Shown here: positions 1-11,724 of the stretch, piece by piece
Position numbering within the stretch: position 1 is the stretch's first letter
How the letters are laid out: each line of letters opens with the position of its first letter
Origin: a virus
Direction: 5' to 3' (one strand)
Virus record (IMG/VR): IMGVR_UViG_3300021957_000385
Span: 1 to 21,246 of that record
DNA length: 21,246 nt
Position numbers and translations under genes: made by a program
The notes under the pieces: generated by a model
What the model saw: only the letters and a program-made list of their open reading frames with translations
The model's database searches: none
Told to the model about the DNA's origin: nothing

Positions 1-1671
1 GAACAACTTCTTCTTCATATCGCTTAGCGATGGCATGAAGTCAAACAAAGATGTGAAAATAAACTTTATATCTTCCCACGCTTCACTGAATATTTTACTG
101 AGCCGAGACTGTCCATCTTCTAGTGGCCCAAAGTAATCCTTCATACCATTGACGATACCTTCCCAAATAGGCTTTACCATCTCTGTAATGCTAAAGCCTC
201 TTAGAAACTCAGCAGCATTGGTCATTCCAAATTTTTCCAGTATCCAAGCAGGCAGGCGGATAAACAAAGCATCAAAAGCATCAGTGATACCAAATATGAC
301 ACCCCCGATACCTCCTGTGATTCCTTTGAACAATTTATCAAACATTGATACTTCTACTTCGTGAAGATTGCCATGATGGTCTTCGACAAACTCTTTTTCT
401 GTGAATCCCTTATAGAAGCCCATGACAAAATCAATTATGGATAATAGTGGACCAGCAATTAATTTGATTGGGGCTTTCAATAAATTCATCACAGGTTTGA
501 ATAAATCACCAATGCCACTAAAGAAATTTCCCACAGGCTTCAGAAAGCCTATCAAGCCAGAGCCAACTCCTTTTGCACTAACAGAACCCAATCCTGTTTT
601 AATGCTATCAAAAAAGCCTTGAAGACCTTCTGGTATTACAATAGAGAACTTAGGTAAATTATCAGCACTTGGTAGTTTCAGTTTTCCATAATCTAGTAAC
701 TTTGCAGCTGTTTGCTTTACTCCATCAAAAAATAAACCAATAGATGGAAGCTTTGGCAATGAGATCTTTCCCCAAGCACTTGCCATTGCATCAGTCATTT
801 TAATTACTTGTCTGCCAACAACAGACACCAAACCTATTTTTGGAAGATCTGGCAGTTTAATATCCGGTAAAGTAATCTTAGCAAATTCAGGTATAGTGAT
901 CTTAGGTATGTCTGGTAATTTTATCTTTGCCCAAACATTTCTAGCGCTCAGGGCAGATATGGCTTTACCAAATGAATCTATAAATGTAATTCTTGGCAGG
1001 TCAGGCAACTTTATCCTACCCCAAGTGGATTTGATGGCATCGCCAGCTAAGTCCAGCAAACCAATCTTAGGTATGTCGGGTAATTTTATTTTTGGCAGGT
1101 CTGGTAATTTTATATTGGCAGTAAGCGCTTTAAAAGCTTTTCCAAGGGAATCAACAATAGTAATTTTTGGCAGGTCTGGTAATTTTAATTTCCAGTTTTC
1201 TGGAACGTCGATTGCTATTTTTGGAATGTATCTGCTAAATGGAAAGGTTTTTATATCGAGAACGAATGTATCGATTGCCTTTACCGTTGTTCTTATACTA
1301 TCCCCAACAGTTGTAAGCCCTTTAGAAAGGTTCTTCAACATTGTAGGAATTTTTAGAGCTTTGACCTCATCATCAAATCCTGCCAGCGATAGTCCTATTG
1401 CAGCCAGTGACGCCAAACCCAAGCGTGATATAATCATTGGAATGTTTAAACCATTGCCAGCATCAGCTCCACCACCTTTACCACCTGGTGGAGGAGGCGT
1501 AGATGCGCGTCTACGACCTTCCATCTTATCTTCAAGACTGTCTAACCTAGCTTGCTTTTGAAGCGTGATCTGTTCCAACACCAAGTCGCCGACAGCCATT
1601 ACAGCTTCGGTGGTATCATCTTGTGAGCCTTTGAGCGTCTTGAGCTCGTTGGTTACAGAGTTTAAAGTCAT
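1..1671 (-). CDS. Probable tail tape measure protein (N-terminal 557 residues; runs off the left edge)
   Basis: The minus strand is open from ATG at 1671 to base 1 with no stop, so the C-terminus is missing. AGG followed by TAA and AAG lies just upstream of the start, overlapping the end of the preceding frame. Residues 1-50 look helical and polar, 55-72 are Pro/Gly-rich, and 77-99 are a hydrophobic stretch (IISRLGLASLAAIGLSLAG). Residues about 162-345 carry repeated LPDLPKI-type motifs alternating with short amphipathic helices. More hydrophobic stretches follow near 400-425 and 449-470. Length, membrane-like segments, repeats and position directly after a gp26/frameshift pair fit a tape measure, which sets tail length and is ejected with DNA. 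No direct sequence match to T4 gp29 was recognised, so the role is inferred mainly from context. An alternative is another large baseplate-associated structural protein. Confidence 0.55.
   Translation of the reverse strand, partial: MTLNSVTNELKTLKGSQDDTTEAVMAVGDLVLEQITLQKQARLDSLEDKMEGRRRASTPPPPGGKGGGADAGNGLNIPMIISRLGLASLAAIGLSLAGFDDEVKALKIPTMLKNLSKGLTTVGDSIRTTVKAIDTFVLDIKTFPFSRYIPKIAIDVPENWKLKLPDLPKITIVDSLGKAFKALTANIKLPDLPKIKLPDIPKIGLLDLAGDAIKSTWGRIKLPDLPRITFIDSFGKAISALSARNVWAKIKLPDIPKITIPEFAKITLPDIKLPDLPKIGLVSVVGRQVIKMTDAMASAWGKISLPKLPSIGLFFDGVKQTAAKLLDYGKLKLPSADNLPKFSIVIPEGLQGFFDSIKTGLGSVSAKGVGSGLIGFLKPVGNFFSGIGDLFKPVMNLLKAPIKLIAGPLLSIIDFVMGFYKGFTEKEFVEDHHGNLHEVEVSMFDKLFKGITGGIGGVIFGITDAFDALFIRLPAWILEKFGMTNAAEFLRGFSITEMVKPIWEGIVNGMKDYFGPLEDGQSRLSKIFSEAWEDIKFIFTSLFDFMPSLSDMKKKLF
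630..1188 (-). repeat. Tandem degenerate repeat in the tape-measure candidate (LPDLPKI units)
   Basis: Residues 162-345 of the minus-strand protein contain repeated units of roughly 25-50 residues. Each opens with a motif close to I-K-L-P-D-L-P-K-I (starts near 162, 187, 196, 220, 250, 271, 303 and 331). Most are followed by a short helix such as VDSLGKAFKALTA or IDSFGKAISALSA, often ending W-x-K. The DNA is also similar between units: on the plus strand GGCAGGTCTGGTAATTTTA or close variants recurs near 905, 995, 1071, 1094 and 1168. That suggests duplication within the gene rather than chance composition. Confidence 0.8.
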
Positions 1672-1674
1672 CTT

Positions 1675-1875
1675 TTACCTTTTTGACATTTGCCGGTTCT
1701 GTTCTTCTTGCCGCTCATTTTCTTCTTTTATGTGATCTATCAACATACTGAGATAGATTTCCCTCTCCCAAGGCATCATCATATCTATTTCTGTTAATGA
1801 ATAATGATGATGCTGCATTAATTGAAAGTTAGTCTTGTAGTAATTGACTAAGCTATCATGGGAGAGGCATATTAG
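1675..1875 (-). CDS. gp51-position tail assembly frame, probably expressed as a -1 frameshift extension of gp26
   Basis: Sixty-six sense codons lie in the -1 frame relative to gp26, beginning at the CTA codon right after the slippery heptamer and ending with TAA at 1675. The peptide reads LICLSHDSLVNYYKTNFQL, continues with a His-rich stretch, then MMPWEREIYLSMLIDHIKEENE and a charged tail. The PWEREIY-like core followed by a charged helix resembles the second half of phage tail assembly chaperones. There is no ATG in this frame between the heptamer and 1818, so LSHDSLVNYY would be lost if translation began at ATG 1818 (47 residues). The frame stays open upstream to an ATG at 1932, but that stretch overlaps gp26 antiparallel to no known motif. 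A frameshift fusion would be 300 residues (234 of gp26 plus 66). The frameshift is inferred and not proven. Confidence 0.65.
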   Translation of the reverse strand, partial: LICLSHDSLVNYYKTNFQLMQHHHYSLTEIDMMMPWEREIYLSMLIDHIKEENERQEEQNRQMSKR

Positions 1876-2576
1876 AAAAAATTGTTTATGCCTGCAAGAA
1901 TCCTTTCTTCCGTGTGGTTGCAATGTGGACATTCCACAGTAAGTTTATGTTCTAGTTTTGGAATCGATTCTAAAAACTCTCTAATCTTTCCAAATTGCTC
2001 TGTTGTTAATGAATCAATGAATGATTGAATTTCTTCTTCTGACTCATCTTTTAGAGAAATATTTTCTTCATTAGTTTGTACTGATTCAATACATTTACTA
2101 ACAATTTTAAAAGATTCATTTGGACCTCCTGCTTCCTGGTCCATTTCTAAAATCTCATTATAAGCAGGATATCTCATCTTGAGTTGTATATCATCAGTAA
2201 GTTTTATAACATCTAATTTTTCTTTTGGCATGGTGACTGTAATGTCAGAAAGAGGAATACTAATTGGAATATCTTTATTGCATTCTGCGCACTGTAAGTT
2301 TATTTCACTAGTCTCTCCAACTGACTTAGAACGGATCTGAGTAAACAAATATTCCACATCAAATGTTGTGAGGGATGAAGTATCAAGATCGTCCTGCACA
2401 CAGGCGTCAATTGTATCTACAATTGCACCAAGCGCTTTCTTGGAATCTTTTGATTCCATAGCCAACATCAAAACCTTTTCTTCTTTGACAAGGTAAGGTC
2501 TGTATCTCACCTTTATCTGAGATGAAGGTACAACAATGTCGTACTTAGGTTGATCATTAAGTTTGGGTAAAGCCAT
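1872..2576 (-). CDS. 26: gp26-like baseplate hub subunit / tail assembly chaperone
   Basis: This 234-residue protein begins MALPKLNDQPKYDIVVPSS and continues with an RPYLVKEEKVLMLAMES segment. Both are hallmarks of the T4 baseplate protein family (T4 gp26, PF12322 by recollection). Two CxxC pairs, CAEC at 96-99 and CPHC at 216-219, could form a metal-binding ribbon. T4 gp26 is of similar length (about 208 residues). The ATG at 2576 is chosen over the in-frame ATG at 2615 because it sits one base after the upstream stop and yields the family N-terminus. The C-terminus ends INNFF at the slippery site, so a minority of ribosomes probably make a longer form. The family is implicated in hub assembly; acting as a tape-measure chaperone is inferred from the frameshift context. 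Confidence 0.85.
   Translation of the reverse strand: MALPKLNDQPKYDIVVPSSQIKVRYRPYLVKEEKVLMLAMESKDSKKALGAIVDTIDACVQDDLDTSSLTTFDVEYLFTQIRSKSVGETSEINLQCAECNKDIPISIPLSDITVTMPKEKLDVIKLTDDIQLKMRYPAYNEILEMDQEAGGPNESFKIVSKCIESVQTNEENISLKDESEEEIQSFIDSLTTEQFGKIREFLESIPKLEHKLTVECPHCNHTEERILAGINNFF
1875..1881 (-). promoter_or_regulatory. Putative programmed -1 ribosomal frameshift site, T TTT TTC
   Basis: On the minus strand the last codons of gp26 are AAT TTT TTC TAA. The seven bases T-TTT-TTC match the X-XXY-YYZ slippery rule in the correct phase, with the gp26 stop directly behind. A -1 slip re-pairs both Phe tRNAs and continues CTA-ATA-TGC into the downstream frame, which is open for 66 codons. This arrangement is analogous to the lambda G/GT frameshift. 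A perfect 6-bp stem (TTAGTC/GACTAA, 11-nt loop) starts 23 nt after the heptamer, further away than usual stimulatory structures, so its role is uncertain. Confidence 0.7.
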
Positions 2577-2577
2577 A

Positions 2578-3207
2578 TTATATATTTCTCCAGTCTTTAA
2601 ATGACAGCTGCACATTCAATTCAATTAAGCCGTCTGCATCGTTATTTAGTTCGAATCCATTCAGTGTTGTTGGAAACGCATTTTGTAATCTCACACCACT
2701 AGAAGCGCCCGTCATCAGCGCAGATACTTGAGAATTTGTCAGTAAGTCTCCTCCCAACAATTCTACAATAACATCCGCGATCACCAATGCATTAGCTATT
2801 TTATTAGTTGATGTGGTAGATCTTTTCTTAATAGTAAAGATTTTTACATCTCTTGTATACTCATTAAAATAGTTGAGTTCTTTTGTTTCTGTATTGACAA
2901 CTAACTCTGACCAAGCATAAAAATAATCTCTAATTTTATTATCATTAAGAACTTGGAAAGTCATAGACACATCATCGTGTAGATATCCATAAGCTGTCTT
3001 GAAAGGCTTCATGCCGATCATTCTATCAGATGTTACAATCTGACGACCTGGCATTGTTACATTCTTGCAGATTAAGTTCATAGTGTTGCTATTAAGGCTT
3101 GGAGCGCGAGGTATGTTGGTTGGTAATTGCACCATCCAGATATTGGATCTAGCAATGCCCCCACCAGCTGAAACAGCACCTTTAAAGTTGTCTATGTCTA
3201 AGCTCAT
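2578..3207 (-). CDS. gp19-family tail tube-domain protein (tube or gp54-like tube initiator)
   Basis: This 209-residue protein begins MSLDIDNFKGAVSAGGGIARSN. The segment WMVQLPTN, then CKNVTMPGRQI, then SMTFQVLNDNKIRDYFYAWSE reads like the T4 tail-tube fold (gp19/gp54 family, PF06841). The start at 3207 shares its A with the upstream stop (TAATG), and the upstream in-frame ATG at 3294 lies inside the preceding gene, so it is rejected. At 209 residues it is longer than T4 gp19 (163) and shorter than gp54 (320). Its place beside gp26 and the tape-measure candidate, instead of beside a sheath gene, favours an initiator or specialised tube protein. The main tube protein cannot be excluded. Confidence 0.65.
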   Translation of the reverse strand: MSLDIDNFKGAVSAGGGIARSNIWMVQLPTNIPRAPSLNSNTMNLICKNVTMPGRQIVTSDRMIGMKPFKTAYGYLHDDVSMTFQVLNDNKIRDYFYAWSELVVNTETKELNYFNEYTRDVKIFTIKKRSTTSTNKIANALVIADVIVELLGGDLLTNSQVSALMTGASSGVRLQNAFPTTLNGFELNNDADGLIELNVQLSFKDWRNI

Positions 3208-3791
3208 TAAATCATCTTCCTTGAATCTTTCCATGCAGCGGCTTGCCCAGCTTTTTGGAATTGGGCTGTCGGCAAGAAGGTAGCAATTTCCCACTCGGGG
3301 GGTGGTACATAGGCAAATCTACTTGCCACTTGACTAGACAAGTAATGTTTAAAACAGGGTTTGTAGTACCTTAGCTTAGATGTTTTCTGCAGCATACTGT
3401 ATCTAGCTTGAAACTTTGTAGTCTCGTCGTACGACTTGTTGTTTGTAATATCAATTAATCCATCTAAAAACTTAGCTCGGAGCACAGGAGGTAAATAATG
3501 AAGATTCAATCCATAGAATCCTCCAGGAGCTTTGGATACAATGACACTCAACGGAAACGAATCATAATAGGGCATCGTATCTTTAGTTTTAGGATTGTAA
3601 TAATACATGAACATGCTACCAATCACTTGCCTGTTACGCAATTCGATAGGCTCACTGTTCATAATCTTCTTACCAGTAACGGAAGACATGGCCCCAGCTT
3701 TCTTGCGGAACCATTCCATAGATTCTTTTGTTCTAGGAGTAATACCTTTACGAAAGGCTTCTAGCTCCAGGGTTTGAAATAAATTTGCCAT
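3207..3791 (-). CDS. Conserved T4-like virion protein, possibly related to gp2 (DNA end protector)
   Basis: This 194-residue protein has motifs RKGITPRTKESMEWF near the N-terminus, MYYYNPKTKDTMPYYDSFPL in the middle, then GLNLHYLPPVLRAKFLDGL, and a C-terminal PPEWEIATFLP. These look strongly conserved, and I associate them with a protein encoded beside gp4 in T4-like phages. In T4, genes 2 and 4 are near neighbours, so a gp2-type role protecting DNA ends in the filled head is possible. T4 gp2 is longer (274 residues), and I cannot confirm homology from memory. It starts just after the gp4 stop and overlaps the tube-domain gene by one base (TAATG), so it is probably co-translated. The product is likely structural or packaging-related. 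Confidence 0.4.
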   Translation of the reverse strand: MANLFQTLELEAFRKGITPRTKESMEWFRKKAGAMSSVTGKKIMNSEPIELRNRQVIGSMFMYYYNPKTKDTMPYYDSFPLSVIVSKAPGGFYGLNLHYLPPVLRAKFLDGLIDITNNKSYDETTKFQARYSMLQKTSKLRYYKPCFKHYLSSQVASRFAYVPPPEWEIATFLPTAQFQKAGQAAAWKDSRKMI

Positions 3792-7516: not shown

Positions 7517-8395
7517 ATGATGAATTATTATGGCGACGATATGAGGTGGTTTGTAGGAACCGTTGCTAATAACTTAGATCCTATTCGAGTGGGAAGAGTA
7601 CAAGTGCGTATCCACGGTATCCACTCTTCTCAGGAAGGACAAATCCCAACTTACGATCTTCCATGGGCTCAAGTAGTTCTTCCGACTACGGAAGGTGGCA
7701 CATCTGGACTTGGTAGAAATCCTATGCTGCAGCCTGGGGCACAAGTGATTGGATTTTTCCTAGATGGTAAAACATCCCAGAATCCTATCGTACTGGGATC
7801 TATTCCTAGTATTGAAATTGTGTCACCAATACAAAGAGCTCAGGCGGGTGATGCTGCTCAACAGATAGGCTTTCCAAGTGGTAGCATATCTGCAGATGAA
7901 ACGAGAGTAGAGGGCGATGTGTATGCGGATCCCAACAAACAAAGACAGTTGACTAGTCAAGGTTCCCCGCAATATCCTCCGGACTGTAATCCTGCTTGGA
8001 TAACTAGTGTGATTACTAGGGAAGCTGAACGTAGATATATGGATCCGAGTGTTTGTATCGCGGTGGCAAAGAGTGAAGGTATGTACAGTTACCAATCTAA
8101 AGCTCCACCAGGGACAAACCTAGCCTATAATGGTAGAGAAGCATCGTTCGGACCTTACCAGCTATATATTGGAGGTAGGGGTGTTGGTAAGAGTTATGGT
8201 TCTAAGGTAGCTGGTGACCCTACTGGTAGGGTTTTGCTTACTGATAACAATAGAGCAGGAATAACCAAACAGATACAATTTACCCTCGACACGGTAATAA
8301 AAAACCGAAGTTGGGCTTGGTGGCATGGGTGGAAGGGTGCACCAGATGCAGGACTTGATTACCGCGGTATTTCCAAACCAAGAGATTTCCAATAG
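7517..8395 (+). CDS. 5: gp5-type OB-fold spike base fused to a lysozyme/transglycosylase-like domain
   Basis: Residues 9-100 form a gp5 OB domain. It starts MRWFVGTVANNLDPIRVGRV and has RIHGIHS, LPWAQVVLPTTEGG and then PGAQVIGFFLDG...PIVLGSIP, matching the gp5/VgrG oligosaccharide-binding fold. A Ser/Gln/Pro linker follows (100-155). Residues 158-285 form a lysozyme-superfamily domain. Its putative catalytic Glu is E187 in VAKSEGMYS, followed by the S-F-G-P-Y-Q-L motif (210-216) typical of soluble-transglycosylase-like muramidases, and then a WWHGWKGAP stretch. There is no C-terminal beta-helix. That part is encoded two genes downstream. AAAGG lies 8 bases upstream, with two in-frame ATGs at 7517 and 7520. 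It likely cuts peptidoglycan glycan strands during infection. Confidence 0.8.
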   Translation: MMNYYGDDMRWFVGTVANNLDPIRVGRVQVRIHGIHSSQEGQIPTYDLPWAQVVLPTTEGGTSGLGRNPMLQPGAQVIGFFLDGKTSQNPIVLGSIPSIEIVSPIQRAQAGDAAQQIGFPSGSISADETRVEGDVYADPNKQRQLTSQGSPQYPPDCNPAWITSVITREAERRYMDPSVCIAVAKSEGMYSYQSKAPPGTNLAYNGREASFGPYQLYIGGRGVGKSYGSKVAGDPTGRVLLTDNNRAGITKQIQFTLDTVIKNRSWAWWHGWKGAPDAGLDYRGISKPRDFQ

Positions 8396-8403
8396 GATAG
8401 AAT

Positions 8404-10395
8404 ATGACTCTTAATCCAAACACATTAAAAACAGATTTAGAAAACCTGCAGAAGTTAATTCAATCTGGTTCTTTAGATGCTGCTACTACGGATACAATAA
8501 AGCAAAAGCTGGCTGCTCAAAGTAGTACTCTTCTTTCAGCAGGACAATCTCAAAGTGGTATCACAAGTCTCACAGATCAACTTAACCATCTTGGAACTTT
8601 AGAAACTGCACCTGGAGACGGTATCGCTAGACTCGGTGGAAACATCACAGGGTTTGAGAATGATGTCAAGACAGACATCAGTTCAGCTGCTGGTGATCTT
8701 TCTACCATGACTGGAGAGACTGTTGAAAGTGGTTTTAGAAAGTTGTATTATGGAGGGACAGGAACAAATGCTGTTAATTCATTATTGGCAGATGCTACAG
8801 GAAAAGATACGACTGCTCTTACTAGCGTTTTAGAGAAGCTTCAAACAGGCGATCTCAAGTCTTTAGTTGCAGATGCACTTACAACTACACTACAAAGTAA
8901 ACTCGCTCCAGCTCTATCACAAATAAGCGACTTGATTAATACATATGTCCCTTCAAACATTGGTTTGGTATTACAAGATATTGTGGATAAATCAGATGGA
9001 TCAATATCGTTTCAACTAAGTGATCTTGCGCAAGGTAGACTCGGTCAGGCTGAATTATCTCTGGCAATGCAGTATATTTCAAACAATAGATTTAATGACG
9101 CGATAAATTTAATTGCAGGAGTTTCTAACAAGCCATACTCGGAAATTGAAGCCGGTGTGTATGGTATGAGTACACAGCTCTCTGATAGATTAACACCTGT
9201 TGAAGATGATCTAACTTCACTAGCACCACTTAACGTTGGTTCATCAAGACCTGGGTTTGACGACCCAACAGACGAGAATTCTAAATTTTCTATTATTCGC
9301 AGCTATGAAGAGCTTGAAGCTGATATGAGAAGCGCGAGTAGGGAAATAACAGAATTTGTTTTGCATTGGTCTGAGTCTGCTACAAATCAATATTTGACAG
9401 CAGAAGACTTAAATGATATACAAAGTGGTATTAGATATCACTATGTTATTTTAAAGAATGGTCAAATACAAAGAGGTCTGCCAATCAATACCGTGGGCAA
9501 TCATATCCCCGTAGCCGTTGTTGCTCAGAATGTCGCCCAAAACAATCCTAATCAAGATGCATATATTGGGGAATCTCAATTTAGGAATAGTGAGACAAAC
9601 GCCAATAGCGCCGCCACGGCTAATCATAATAAGTATAGTATTGGCGTTTGTATCATTGGAGGAATTGCGGCTCCAGCGGGGGCTCCAGAGTATGAAAGAT
9701 TTCTAAGCAAAAGTTCTATAACAGACGCTCAGTGGAAATCCATCGATGGAATGTTCGCAACATTTTTCAAAGCGTTTCCTGGAGGGCAGGTGTTCGGCCA
9801 CAATAGCATTGAACCGAATGAACCAGACCCAGGATTTGATGTACCATCATATTGCAAAAAAAGATTGAATAAGTGGAACACAAGTCCAAATGCGCTTTCC
9901 GCTGCTCAGCTAAACGGTTCGTCTGATGGGGAATTTGATACAACCAGTCTTGGTTCTGTTACCCCAGATACAGGTGCGACATTGACTTCAAGAGTGTTTA
10001 TGGACAGTAGTGACCTGAGTAGATTACCTAAACAAAGTATTATTAACGCTATAGATGCAGCGGTTGGAGCGCTAGGATCTGCTTATCAAGCAAGGATTAC
10101 TCCCCAAGGTGGTAAATTTGCTAGGGCATCAGGGACAAAGAATCACCCAACTGGTGAAGCTGCTGACCATTACTTGGTCCGGAACGGTGAAAGAATTAAT
10201 CCAAATCAGAACCGTCAACTATACAATGACTACATCACCATTCTTGTTCGCAATGCAAAAGCCAGAGGCATACGTCCTGGTATTGGTGGGTACAATAGTT
10301 TTATTCATTATGATGAATCCCCTTGGAGACAGGGCAAAGCTGGGACTGCTGGAACGTGGGGTTCCGGTACAGCATTTGCGCGCAACATAGCATAA
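8404..10395 (+). CDS. Two-domain peptidoglycan hydrolase: N-acetylmuramoyl-L-alanine amidase plus M15-type peptidase
   Basis: This 663-residue protein has three parts. Residues 1-270 are helical, Ser/Thr/Ala-rich and unrecognised, and may anchor it in the virion. Residues 305-490 form an amidase_2 domain. Candidate zinc ligands are H321 (in VLHWSES) and H466 (in GHNSIEPNEPDPGFD), with a D in that acidic loop replacing the usual Cys or His; YHYVI (345-349) is also typical. Residues 545-645 look like M15 peptidases, with H581 and D588 in SGTKNHPTGEAADHYL and H635/D637 in FIHYDES. Together these could cleave the amide and peptide cross-links. The gene sits between the gp5 OB-lysozyme and gp5 spike genes, starting 8 bases after the former, so it is probably a baseplate-borne wall-digesting component. 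Lysis at the end of infection is the alternative role. Confidence 0.82.
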   Translation: MTLNPNTLKTDLENLQKLIQSGSLDAATTDTIKQKLAAQSSTLLSAGQSQSGITSLTDQLNHLGTLETAPGDGIARLGGNITGFENDVKTDISSAAGDLSTMTGETVESGFRKLYYGGTGTNAVNSLLADATGKDTTALTSVLEKLQTGDLKSLVADALTTTLQSKLAPALSQISDLINTYVPSNIGLVLQDIVDKSDGSISFQLSDLAQGRLGQAELSLAMQYISNNRFNDAINLIAGVSNKPYSEIEAGVYGMSTQLSDRLTPVEDDLTSLAPLNVGSSRPGFDDPTDENSKFSIIRSYEELEADMRSASREITEFVLHWSESATNQYLTAEDLNDIQSGIRYHYVILKNGQIQRGLPINTVGNHIPVAVVAQNVAQNNPNQDAYIGESQFRNSETNANSAATANHNKYSIGVCIIGGIAAPAGAPEYERFLSKSSITDAQWKSIDGMFATFFKAFPGGQVFGHNSIEPNEPDPGFDVPSYCKKRLNKWNTSPNALSAAQLNGSSDGEFDTTSLGSVTPDTGATLTSRVFMDSSDLSRLPKQSIINAIDAAVGALGSAYQARITPQGGKFARASGTKNHPTGEAADHYLVRNGERINPNQNRQLYNDYITILVRNAKARGIRPGIGGYNSFIHYDESPWRQGKAGTAGTWGSGTAFARNIA

Positions 10396-10404
10396 GAGGA
10401 ACAA

Positions 10405-11724
10405 ATGACAACTTCTCAAGATAAATTACAGAATCAGATTCAACAGACAGGTAACTATGCAGTATACAGAGGTACCTTTGAAGATCAGTTTGGAGATCCT
10501 AGAGGGGTTAATCCCAAACCAGAGTATCAAGAACAATCCTCTTTAAACAAAGCAGCCACGGGTGAAGAAAAACATCAGCTAAAGGGTTATCAAGGGATCC
10601 CTGGAGTGGATGTTGGTCAAGATGACGCGCCGCCTGAGTATCCCTTTTGCCAGACCCAAGAAAGTTTGTCTGGCCATGTAATTGAGATGGACGATACAAA
10701 AGGTTCAGAAAGACTTCTTATCAAACACGCAAGTGGTGCTGGTGTCGAGATGAGGGCTGACGGAACGGTAATTATAACAACCCAACGAAATCAGATAACC
10801 GTTGTCAATGGATCACAAACTGTGTATGTTGAGGGTGATGCTAAAATGAGATATGACAACTTAACCGTTGAAGTCGCTGGTGACTATAACCTAAATGTTA
10901 AAGGCAACATTAATACAACAGCTGGTGGAGATATTTCAACTGCATCTGTTCACACCACTGAAGTGACAGAAGGTAACAAGAGTGCAAAGGTCATGGGTAA
11001 TGTGTCCGAGACAGTCATTGGATCCAAAGCTGCTATGGTGATGGGGGAAGTAAATGATATCGTCAAGGGTGAACGAACCATTGCTTCTGGCTCTGGATTG
11101 ACAATGGCCTCGACAGGAATATTAAAATTATCAAGCGAAGATAAAATTATTGGAAGTGCTGGGGCGACTGTACAGTTAGCAGCTCCTAAGATCAATGTGT
11201 TTGGAGCTTCTGGCACTATCGGGGGCGAAGAAGTAGTGCACTATGGCAGCACATACCATGGGGATCTGAATGGATTAGCAAGGGAAGCTTCTGAATCATA
11301 TCACCAAAACTATCCAGATGGATCTGCTTCTCCTTCGACTTATACTGTTTCAGTCGGGTCGCCCAATTGGTCTGATCCTACAAATAATAAGACAACTTTC
11401 CAACCAACGACAGCCGCTATGAGTTCTCTTGGCGCGTCCAGCATATACGGGGTTAATGATATCCAAATTGATTTAGACGACCATTTAAAAAATGCGATTG
11501 ACCAAACAACCAATACTAATGGTAAAGCAAAATCGCCTCAGTCCACTATGCAAGTTAGATCATCTTTAAAAGATCCAGGAAACCTGACAGACAAACACTA
11601 CCTTGCCAATGCGGTTGCAGATGGAAAGCTCAGCGCCAAATATACACAGACAGCCCCTGGTGGAGTTGGTCGTACAGTGAATAGCGAGCCAACAGCAACA
11701 AGAATCTATTCAACGGTGCAATAA
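10405..11724 (+). CDS. gp5 C-terminal-type beta-helix membrane-puncturing spike
   Basis: This 439-residue protein has SGHVIEMDDTKGSERLLIKH followed by SGAGVEMRADGTVII (89-124), the VgrG/gp5 signature before the beta-helix. Residues 125-265 are short repeats of beta strands with regularly spaced Gly (VEGDAKMRY, VAGDYNLNVKG, VMGNVSETVIG, VMGEVNDIVKG, IIGSAGATV), as in the triple-stranded gp5 needle. The C-terminal 170 residues are Ser/Thr/Asn-rich and unrecognised. They contain no lysozyme domain. A clear AGAGGA ribosome site precedes the ATG. It presumably trimerises on the hub and pierces the outer membrane. A PAAR-type tip protein was not found. The stop overlaps the next ATG (TAATG). Confidence 0.82.
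   Translation: MTTSQDKLQNQIQQTGNYAVYRGTFEDQFGDPRGVNPKPEYQEQSSLNKAATGEEKHQLKGYQGIPGVDVGQDDAPPEYPFCQTQESLSGHVIEMDDTKGSERLLIKHASGAGVEMRADGTVIITTQRNQITVVNGSQTVYVEGDAKMRYDNLTVEVAGDYNLNVKGNINTTAGGDISTASVHTTEVTEGNKSAKVMGNVSETVIGSKAAMVMGEVNDIVKGERTIASGSGLTMASTGILKLSSEDKIIGSAGATVQLAAPKINVFGASGTIGGEEVVHYGSTYHGDLNGLAREASESYHQNYPDGSASPSTYTVSVGSPNWSDPTNNKTTFQPTTAAMSSLGASSIYGVNDIQIDLDDHLKNAIDQTTNTNGKAKSPQSTMQVRSSLKDPGNLTDKHYLANAVADGKLSAKYTQTAPGGVGRTVNSEPTATRIYSTVQ

Follow-up and report, generated by a model that had tools for sequence, protein, structure and literature searches.

A conserved slippery junction at the end of gp26 in marine T4-like phages: a probable frameshift-made tail chaperone pair and its candidate RNA stimulator

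How does a T4-like phage express a small open frame that overlaps the very end of gp26? The question is raised by IMGVR_UViG_3300021957_000385, a 21-kb virus fragment from an uncultured marine T4-like phage; the whole stretch analyzed, 21,246 nucleotides, is called the window here. On its minus strand, gp26 (1872..2576; 234 aa) is met at its 3' end by a -1 frame for a 66-residue C-terminal domain (1675..1875), the cyanophage "gp51." An initial annotation of this DNA had proposed that a -1 frameshift joins the two and that gp26 and the fusion are the chaperone pair of the tape measure protein. We find that ribosomes very probably do slip by -1 at the end of gp26. We also hold it highly probable that gp26 and the fusion are a tail assembly chaperone (TAC) pair made on U_UUU_UUC, with probable stimulation by an RNA stem in the group to which the window belongs.

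The junction in the window

Read 5' to 3' on the minus strand, gp26 ends AAC AAT TTT TTC TAA, with AAT at 1883-1881, TTT at 1880-1878, TTC at 1877-1875, and TAA at 1874-1872. The heptamer T_TTT_TTC (1875..1881, minus strand) stands in X_XXY_YYZ phase, and the 0-frame stop (1872..1874, minus strand) is the next codon, directly 3' of it, just as the initial annotation had described. Its claim that a -1 slip enters a 66-codon open frame also agrees with the coordinates: the frame is open from 1875 to a stop ending at 1675. The predicted fusion (1675..2576, minus strand) would be 300 residues long, and its junction, NNFFLICLSH, would give the junction peptide ILAGINNFFLICLSHDSLVNYYK. The bare heptamer is not rare, as TTTTTTC occurs 5 times in the window versus 8.7 expected. 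What is above chance is its phase, position, and conservation, not its mere occurrence.

Conservation of the junction

Is this junction kept in relatives? We ran tblastn with the fusion as the query (1,173 phage records) and compared 388 loci, mostly viral contigs plus isolates, which hold 273 distinct junctions; some counts below refer to an earlier subset of 160 distinct relatives. TTTTTTN lies exactly 34 codons before the conserved proline of a PWE motif in 372 of the 388 loci, and the distance is invariant (372/372). The remaining 16 include a window piece in the opposite orientation, T4, the Serratia phage phiMAM1, incomplete contigs, and motif variants; in the motif-variant loci inspected, TTTTTT is still present at the gp26 end. 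The heptamer is kept in the isolates P-SSM2, Syn33, S-CAM4, C48C1, the KVP40-like phi-pp2 and D483, Sinorhizobium phiN3, and Acidovorax ACP17, and the stop falls 0 or 1 codon past it in 268 of 273 relatives. Across about 270 distinct junctions, relatives retain the heptamer together with an overlapping -1 frame, and both frames are coding.

The codons around the slip are equally constrained. The codon preceding TTT is always NNT (273/273 distinct junctions). The codons found in the A site are TTC (157 junctions), TTT (99), TTA (15), and TTG (2), all re-pairable after a -1 shift. Given the encoded residues, the codon-usage probability of finding T at the base before TTT throughout the 160-locus subset is about 10^-34, a value uncorrected for kinship. 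The heptamer is nearly universal: T_TTT_TTN is common to the relatives' junctions read except that of phiMAM1, and T4, with its separate genes, also lacks it. In phiMAM1 (Ackermannviridae; 3190-3369), gp26 ends CAG GTT TTC ATC TGA, and an open -1 frame encodes a related domain. Since TTTTTT is missing there, the slip site of this phage, if it has one, must differ. These sequence comparisons indicate that a frameshift-made tail chaperone pair may be the rule in marine T4-like phages.

As a separate observation, TTC is preferred to TTT as the second Phe codon (110 versus 41 in the first 160 loci), though TTT makes up 73% of Phe codons gene-wide.

Could the two frames be a broken or mis-sequenced single gene? 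One homopolymer indel would look the same in a single contig, but this junction recurs in isolates and in about 270 distinct sequences from many samples, with gp26 often only about 40% identical. Conservation of the junction refutes the idea, and we give it essentially no weight.

Alternatively, RNA polymerase might slip on the T run, yielding mixed mRNAs and a frame change at transcription. Among the 156 loci in which gp26 ends in Phe-Phe, 42 do have seven T's in a row. Most loci, however, have just six, followed by C, A, or G. Moreover, slippage of the polymerase needs no codon phase, whereas here the phase, the re-pairable A-site codons, and an RNA stem at ribosomal spacing (see below) are all kept. 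We consider transcriptional slippage very improbable, marginally more so than the independent gene considered next.

Is the small frame a gene of its own?

The small frame might instead be an independent gene, as the "gp51" of GenBank records implies, translated either from a start codon within gp26 or by ribosomes that re-initiate past its stop. The initial annotation had stated that the frame lacks a start codon. This holds between the slip and M20; it does not hold upstream, where the same frame is open for another 23 codons and contains an ATG at 1932 (an 85-aa open reading frame). That ATG, the only candidate in the window, is without a good ribosome-binding site and is not conserved among relatives. 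Many cyanophages do have an ATG just past the gp26 stop (P-SSM2, TAAGTATG), and one falls within residues 1 to 6 in 86 of 273 loci. Yet the first six residues contain no ATG, GTG, or TTG in 162 of the 273, and in 150 no such codon lies between the previous -1-frame stop and the start of the conserved domain, while the heptamer and the LSH or MAH start are still kept. An independent gene would also leave unexplained the invariant heptamer and a T4 gp51 that matches the full fusion (see below). We judge this alternative very unlikely.

Public cyanophage records label the -1 frame as a separate "gp51" with differing starts or leave it unannotated. The annotated start lies 2 nucleotides past the gp26 stop in P-SSM2 and about 75 nucleotides downstream in C48C1, and S-CAM4 has none; such disagreement also speaks against an independent gene. 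Since the starts are inconsistent or missing among records, these annotations are probably wrong. Cyanophage gp51 has been described as only about 20% the length of other gp51 proteins (Sullivan et al. 2010; PMC3037559). Our data indicate that most of the small cyanophage "gp51" genes are not independent genes but the final part of a fusion.

T4 gp51 corresponds to the whole fusion

What, then, of T4, where genes 26 and 51 are separate? The window gp26 matches PF12322, the T4 gp26/gp51 family, at 211 bits (cut-off, 24.5; E = 2.3e-62) and phrog_150 (baseplate hub) at E = 1.9e-65; the -1 frame matches phrog_634 (baseplate hub assembly catalyst) at E = 1.4e-28. Both T4 proteins, gp26 and gp51, also match PF12322, and BLASTP shows them to be paralogs (E = 2e-6). 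In T4 gp51, a full gp26-like chain is followed by a small C-terminal domain, and the -1 domain of the window is homologous to gp51 residues 204 to 244. The initial annotation was right that T4 encodes gp26 and gp51 separately, but gp51 is not merely the 66-residue domain. At the place of the junction, T4 gp26 reads GAG TTC TTT GAG, with no slippery site.

Because T4 gp51 is a complete gp26-like chain plus the domain, T4 has two paralogous genes in place of frameshifting. Because the domain sits at the C terminus, gp51 is the single-chain counterpart of the fusion and gp26 that of the short form. The homology thus indicates that T4 gene 26 is equivalent to the short form and gene 51 to the long one. 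Assembly of T4 requires gp51, yet the protein is absent from the particle (PMC3004832).

A covarying RNA stem in the window's group

Is there a stimulator downstream of the heptamer? Codons (r) of the -1 frame are counted here starting at the final base of the heptamer, so that r3.3 is the third position of codon 3. The minimum free energy fold of the 120 nucleotides after the heptamer in the window has z = -5.4. It contains a 9-bp stem whose 5' arm, CCUCUCCCA (1859..1867, minus strand), begins 7 nucleotides past the heptamer and whose 3' arm, UGGGAGAGG (1762..1770, minus strand), lies within the codons of the conserved PWER motif. The stem closes an 88-nucleotide loop, and its arms encode the conserved LSH and PWER protein motifs. 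Its spacing is within the range of about 5 to 9 nucleotides of dnaX/IS911-type base-paired stimulators. A search of window positions 1600 to 2000 against Rfam gave no match.

The stem is seen through covariation. Pairs r3.3-r38.3 and r4.3-r37.3 belong to adjacent codon pairs and link third codon positions on both sides, where changes are silent on either side. By corrected mutual information they occupy the first two ranks among 4,619 column pairs in 57 loci with the LSH motif, among 4,331 in 70 held-out loci, and among 4,421 in all 122. Fisher tests on the two pairs gave 1e-10 and 3e-8. Across the 122 relatives, this helix is paired in 90.8% of cells, with 82 cells changed on both sides; the whole structure is paired in 73.9% of cells versus 37 to 50% when the partner is slid. 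On the gp26 protein tree, each silent pair changed from C-G to T-A or back on at least 11 occasions. Independent comparisons on the tree gave 4.7 and 3.9 cases in which both sides changed in the same direction versus 0.0 and 0.1, and most control sites shown had no trend. In the window's group, the stem probably stimulates the slip.

An inner hairpin inside the loop (1773..1813, minus strand; arms 1813-1804 and 1782-1773, within HHH and MMM codons) is strong in the window fold. As part of the conserved structure it was rejected, with only 58.7% of cells paired in relatives.

A different hairpin in cyanophages

Typical cyanophages, whose small domain starts with MAH, carry a local hairpin instead, beginning 5 nucleotides past the heptamer. 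It is paired in 91.5% of cells, and its best covarying pair, r5.3-r10.2, ranks first of 2,487 column pairs: the third base of the Ala5 codon varies with the identity of residue 10 (GCT with Glu, 37; GCG with Ala, 7; GCA with Val, 7). In sliding folds, the signal appears at offsets of 0 to +6 after the heptamer, peaks at +3 to +6, and is largely gone at +12. Mean folding z at the peak is -3.2 for the LSH group and -3.8 for the MAH cyanophage group.

Signals of the dnaX/IS911 type can have a Shine-Dalgarno-like element about 10 to 15 nucleotides 5' of the heptamer, and many relatives carry one, a GAGG some 14 nucleotides away. GAGG or GGAG is found 12 to 15 nucleotides upstream in 119 of 160 loci versus 76 +/- 6 under synonymous shuffling, and codon -5 is GAG for 89 of 116 Glu residues versus 28% gene-wide. 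On balance, we lean toward a composite T4-like signal, in which the slippery site is fixed, the stimulator is swapped between lineages (the long-range LSH/PWER stem or the local cyanophage hairpin), and the upstream element is present in many, while T4's own group uses two paralogous genes instead.

Might the stem be real and serve another role, for instance in mRNA stability or in translation of the tape measure gene, which it could couple or block? It does lie inside the small frame, about 90 nucleotides upstream of the tape measure start. It is fixed at 7 nucleotides from the slippery site, however, and in another lineage a different hairpin is maintained at almost this position. We therefore think another role improbable, though less so than the alternatives to ribosomal slippage itself.

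A probable tail assembly chaperone pair

Are gp26 and its fusion tail chaperones? The initial annotation had placed the pair before a repeat-rich large protein. The genes run in the order tail tube, gp26, small frame, tape measure. A tail-tube-like gene (2578..3294, minus strand; phrog_45, tail tube, E = 2.2e-27) is upstream of gp26, and a tape-measure-like gene that extends past the window edge (1..1671, minus strand) is downstream, with weak matches to several PHROG tape measure families (best E = 2.9e-6). A tail tube gene is annotated directly upstream in C48C1, phiN3, and D483 as well. Together, the conserved junction, this gene order, and T4 gp51 as a whole fusion support the proposed chaperone pair, with the chaperone role itself remaining putative.

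In the mechanism that we favor, a minority of ribosomes would move back one base on U_UUU_UUC, immediately ahead of the gp26 stop, and would finish the 300-residue long form, TAC-NC, with its extra helical domain (TAC-C). The short form, TAC-N (gp26), would coat the tape measure protein, and TAC-NC would recruit tail tube subunits, following the scheme of lambda G/GT. In the window's group, the slip would be stimulated by the long-range stem.

Several points weigh against this reading. The slip, its stimulation by the stem, the ratio of the products, and the chaperone role are all things that we infer. The gp26 model (predicted local distance difference test [pLDDT] score, 91) finds as its highest-probability PDB match listed the HK97 tail assembly chaperone 2ob9, a weak match by Foldseek (probability, 0.69; E = 0.91; template modeling score, 0.19 to 0.41). 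Where relatives carry the Shine-Dalgarno-like GAGG(G), the window has a poor version of it, only GCAGGC (1890..1895, minus strand). The contigs are related, so that column statistics overstate independence. Finally, the tree test has 7 fully supported comparisons; with so few, it falls short by itself, and neither pair alone reaches P < 0.05. What carries the case for the stem is that the tree result agrees both with a column ranking that was replicated and with a folding signal specific to this position.

The small domain is predicted to be all helical (pLDDT, 88). Its model had no significant match in BFVD by Foldseek, and searching solved structures by sequence with gp26 and with the domain gave nothing meaningful.

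Relation to known systems

How much of this is new? According to papers that cite it (PMC12846349 and PMC10885494), a frameshift tail chaperone was already proposed for T4-like phages by Vladimirov, Gautam, and Davidson (Virology 2022;566:9-15). They also report poly-T slippery sites in TAC-N genes of T4-like phages (PMC12846349) and say that some T4-like phages, in place of frameshifting, carry two genes, one short and one long and fused (PMC10885494). As these sources relate it, the central finding is thus prior art; the chaperone-pair reading is well supported, not new, and it is the RNA stimulator that deserves further attention. In the open literature, with Vladimirov et al. 2022 known through citing papers, we came across neither the covarying stem nor a swap of stimulators between lineages, a weak sign that these are new. 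The stem is a concrete, testable candidate stimulator, and if its exchange around one fixed slippery site is true, it would be a natural experiment on the tuning of frameshift efficiency.

Lambda gpG/gpGT (Xu et al. 2004, summarized in PMC5009743) likewise has short and long forms at the same place among the genes. Family searches, none aimed at this relation, revealed no sequence kinship. The same 2016 summary calls the G-T frameshift widely conserved "except T4." The IS911 -1 signal (Rettberg 1999 and Prere 2011, cited in PMC4066793) also combines a heptamer, an upstream Shine-Dalgarno-like element, and a downstream branched stem with a three-way junction. The genes are unrelated, however, and here the large loop is closed by arms that encode protein motifs. 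The TAC locus of Vandenendeviridae and Andersonviridae (PMC12846349) similarly has a conserved -1 frame after TAC-N that is elsewhere annotated as a separate hypothetical gene; these are different phage families, and their slippery sequence is an invariant GTTTTT.

Elsewhere in the window, a T4 gp5-like spike is seemingly split over three adjoining genes (7517-11724, plus strand), which encode an OB-domain protein (PF06714), an Amidase_2 protein (PF01510), and a gp5 needle-like protein (PF22178, below the cut-off).
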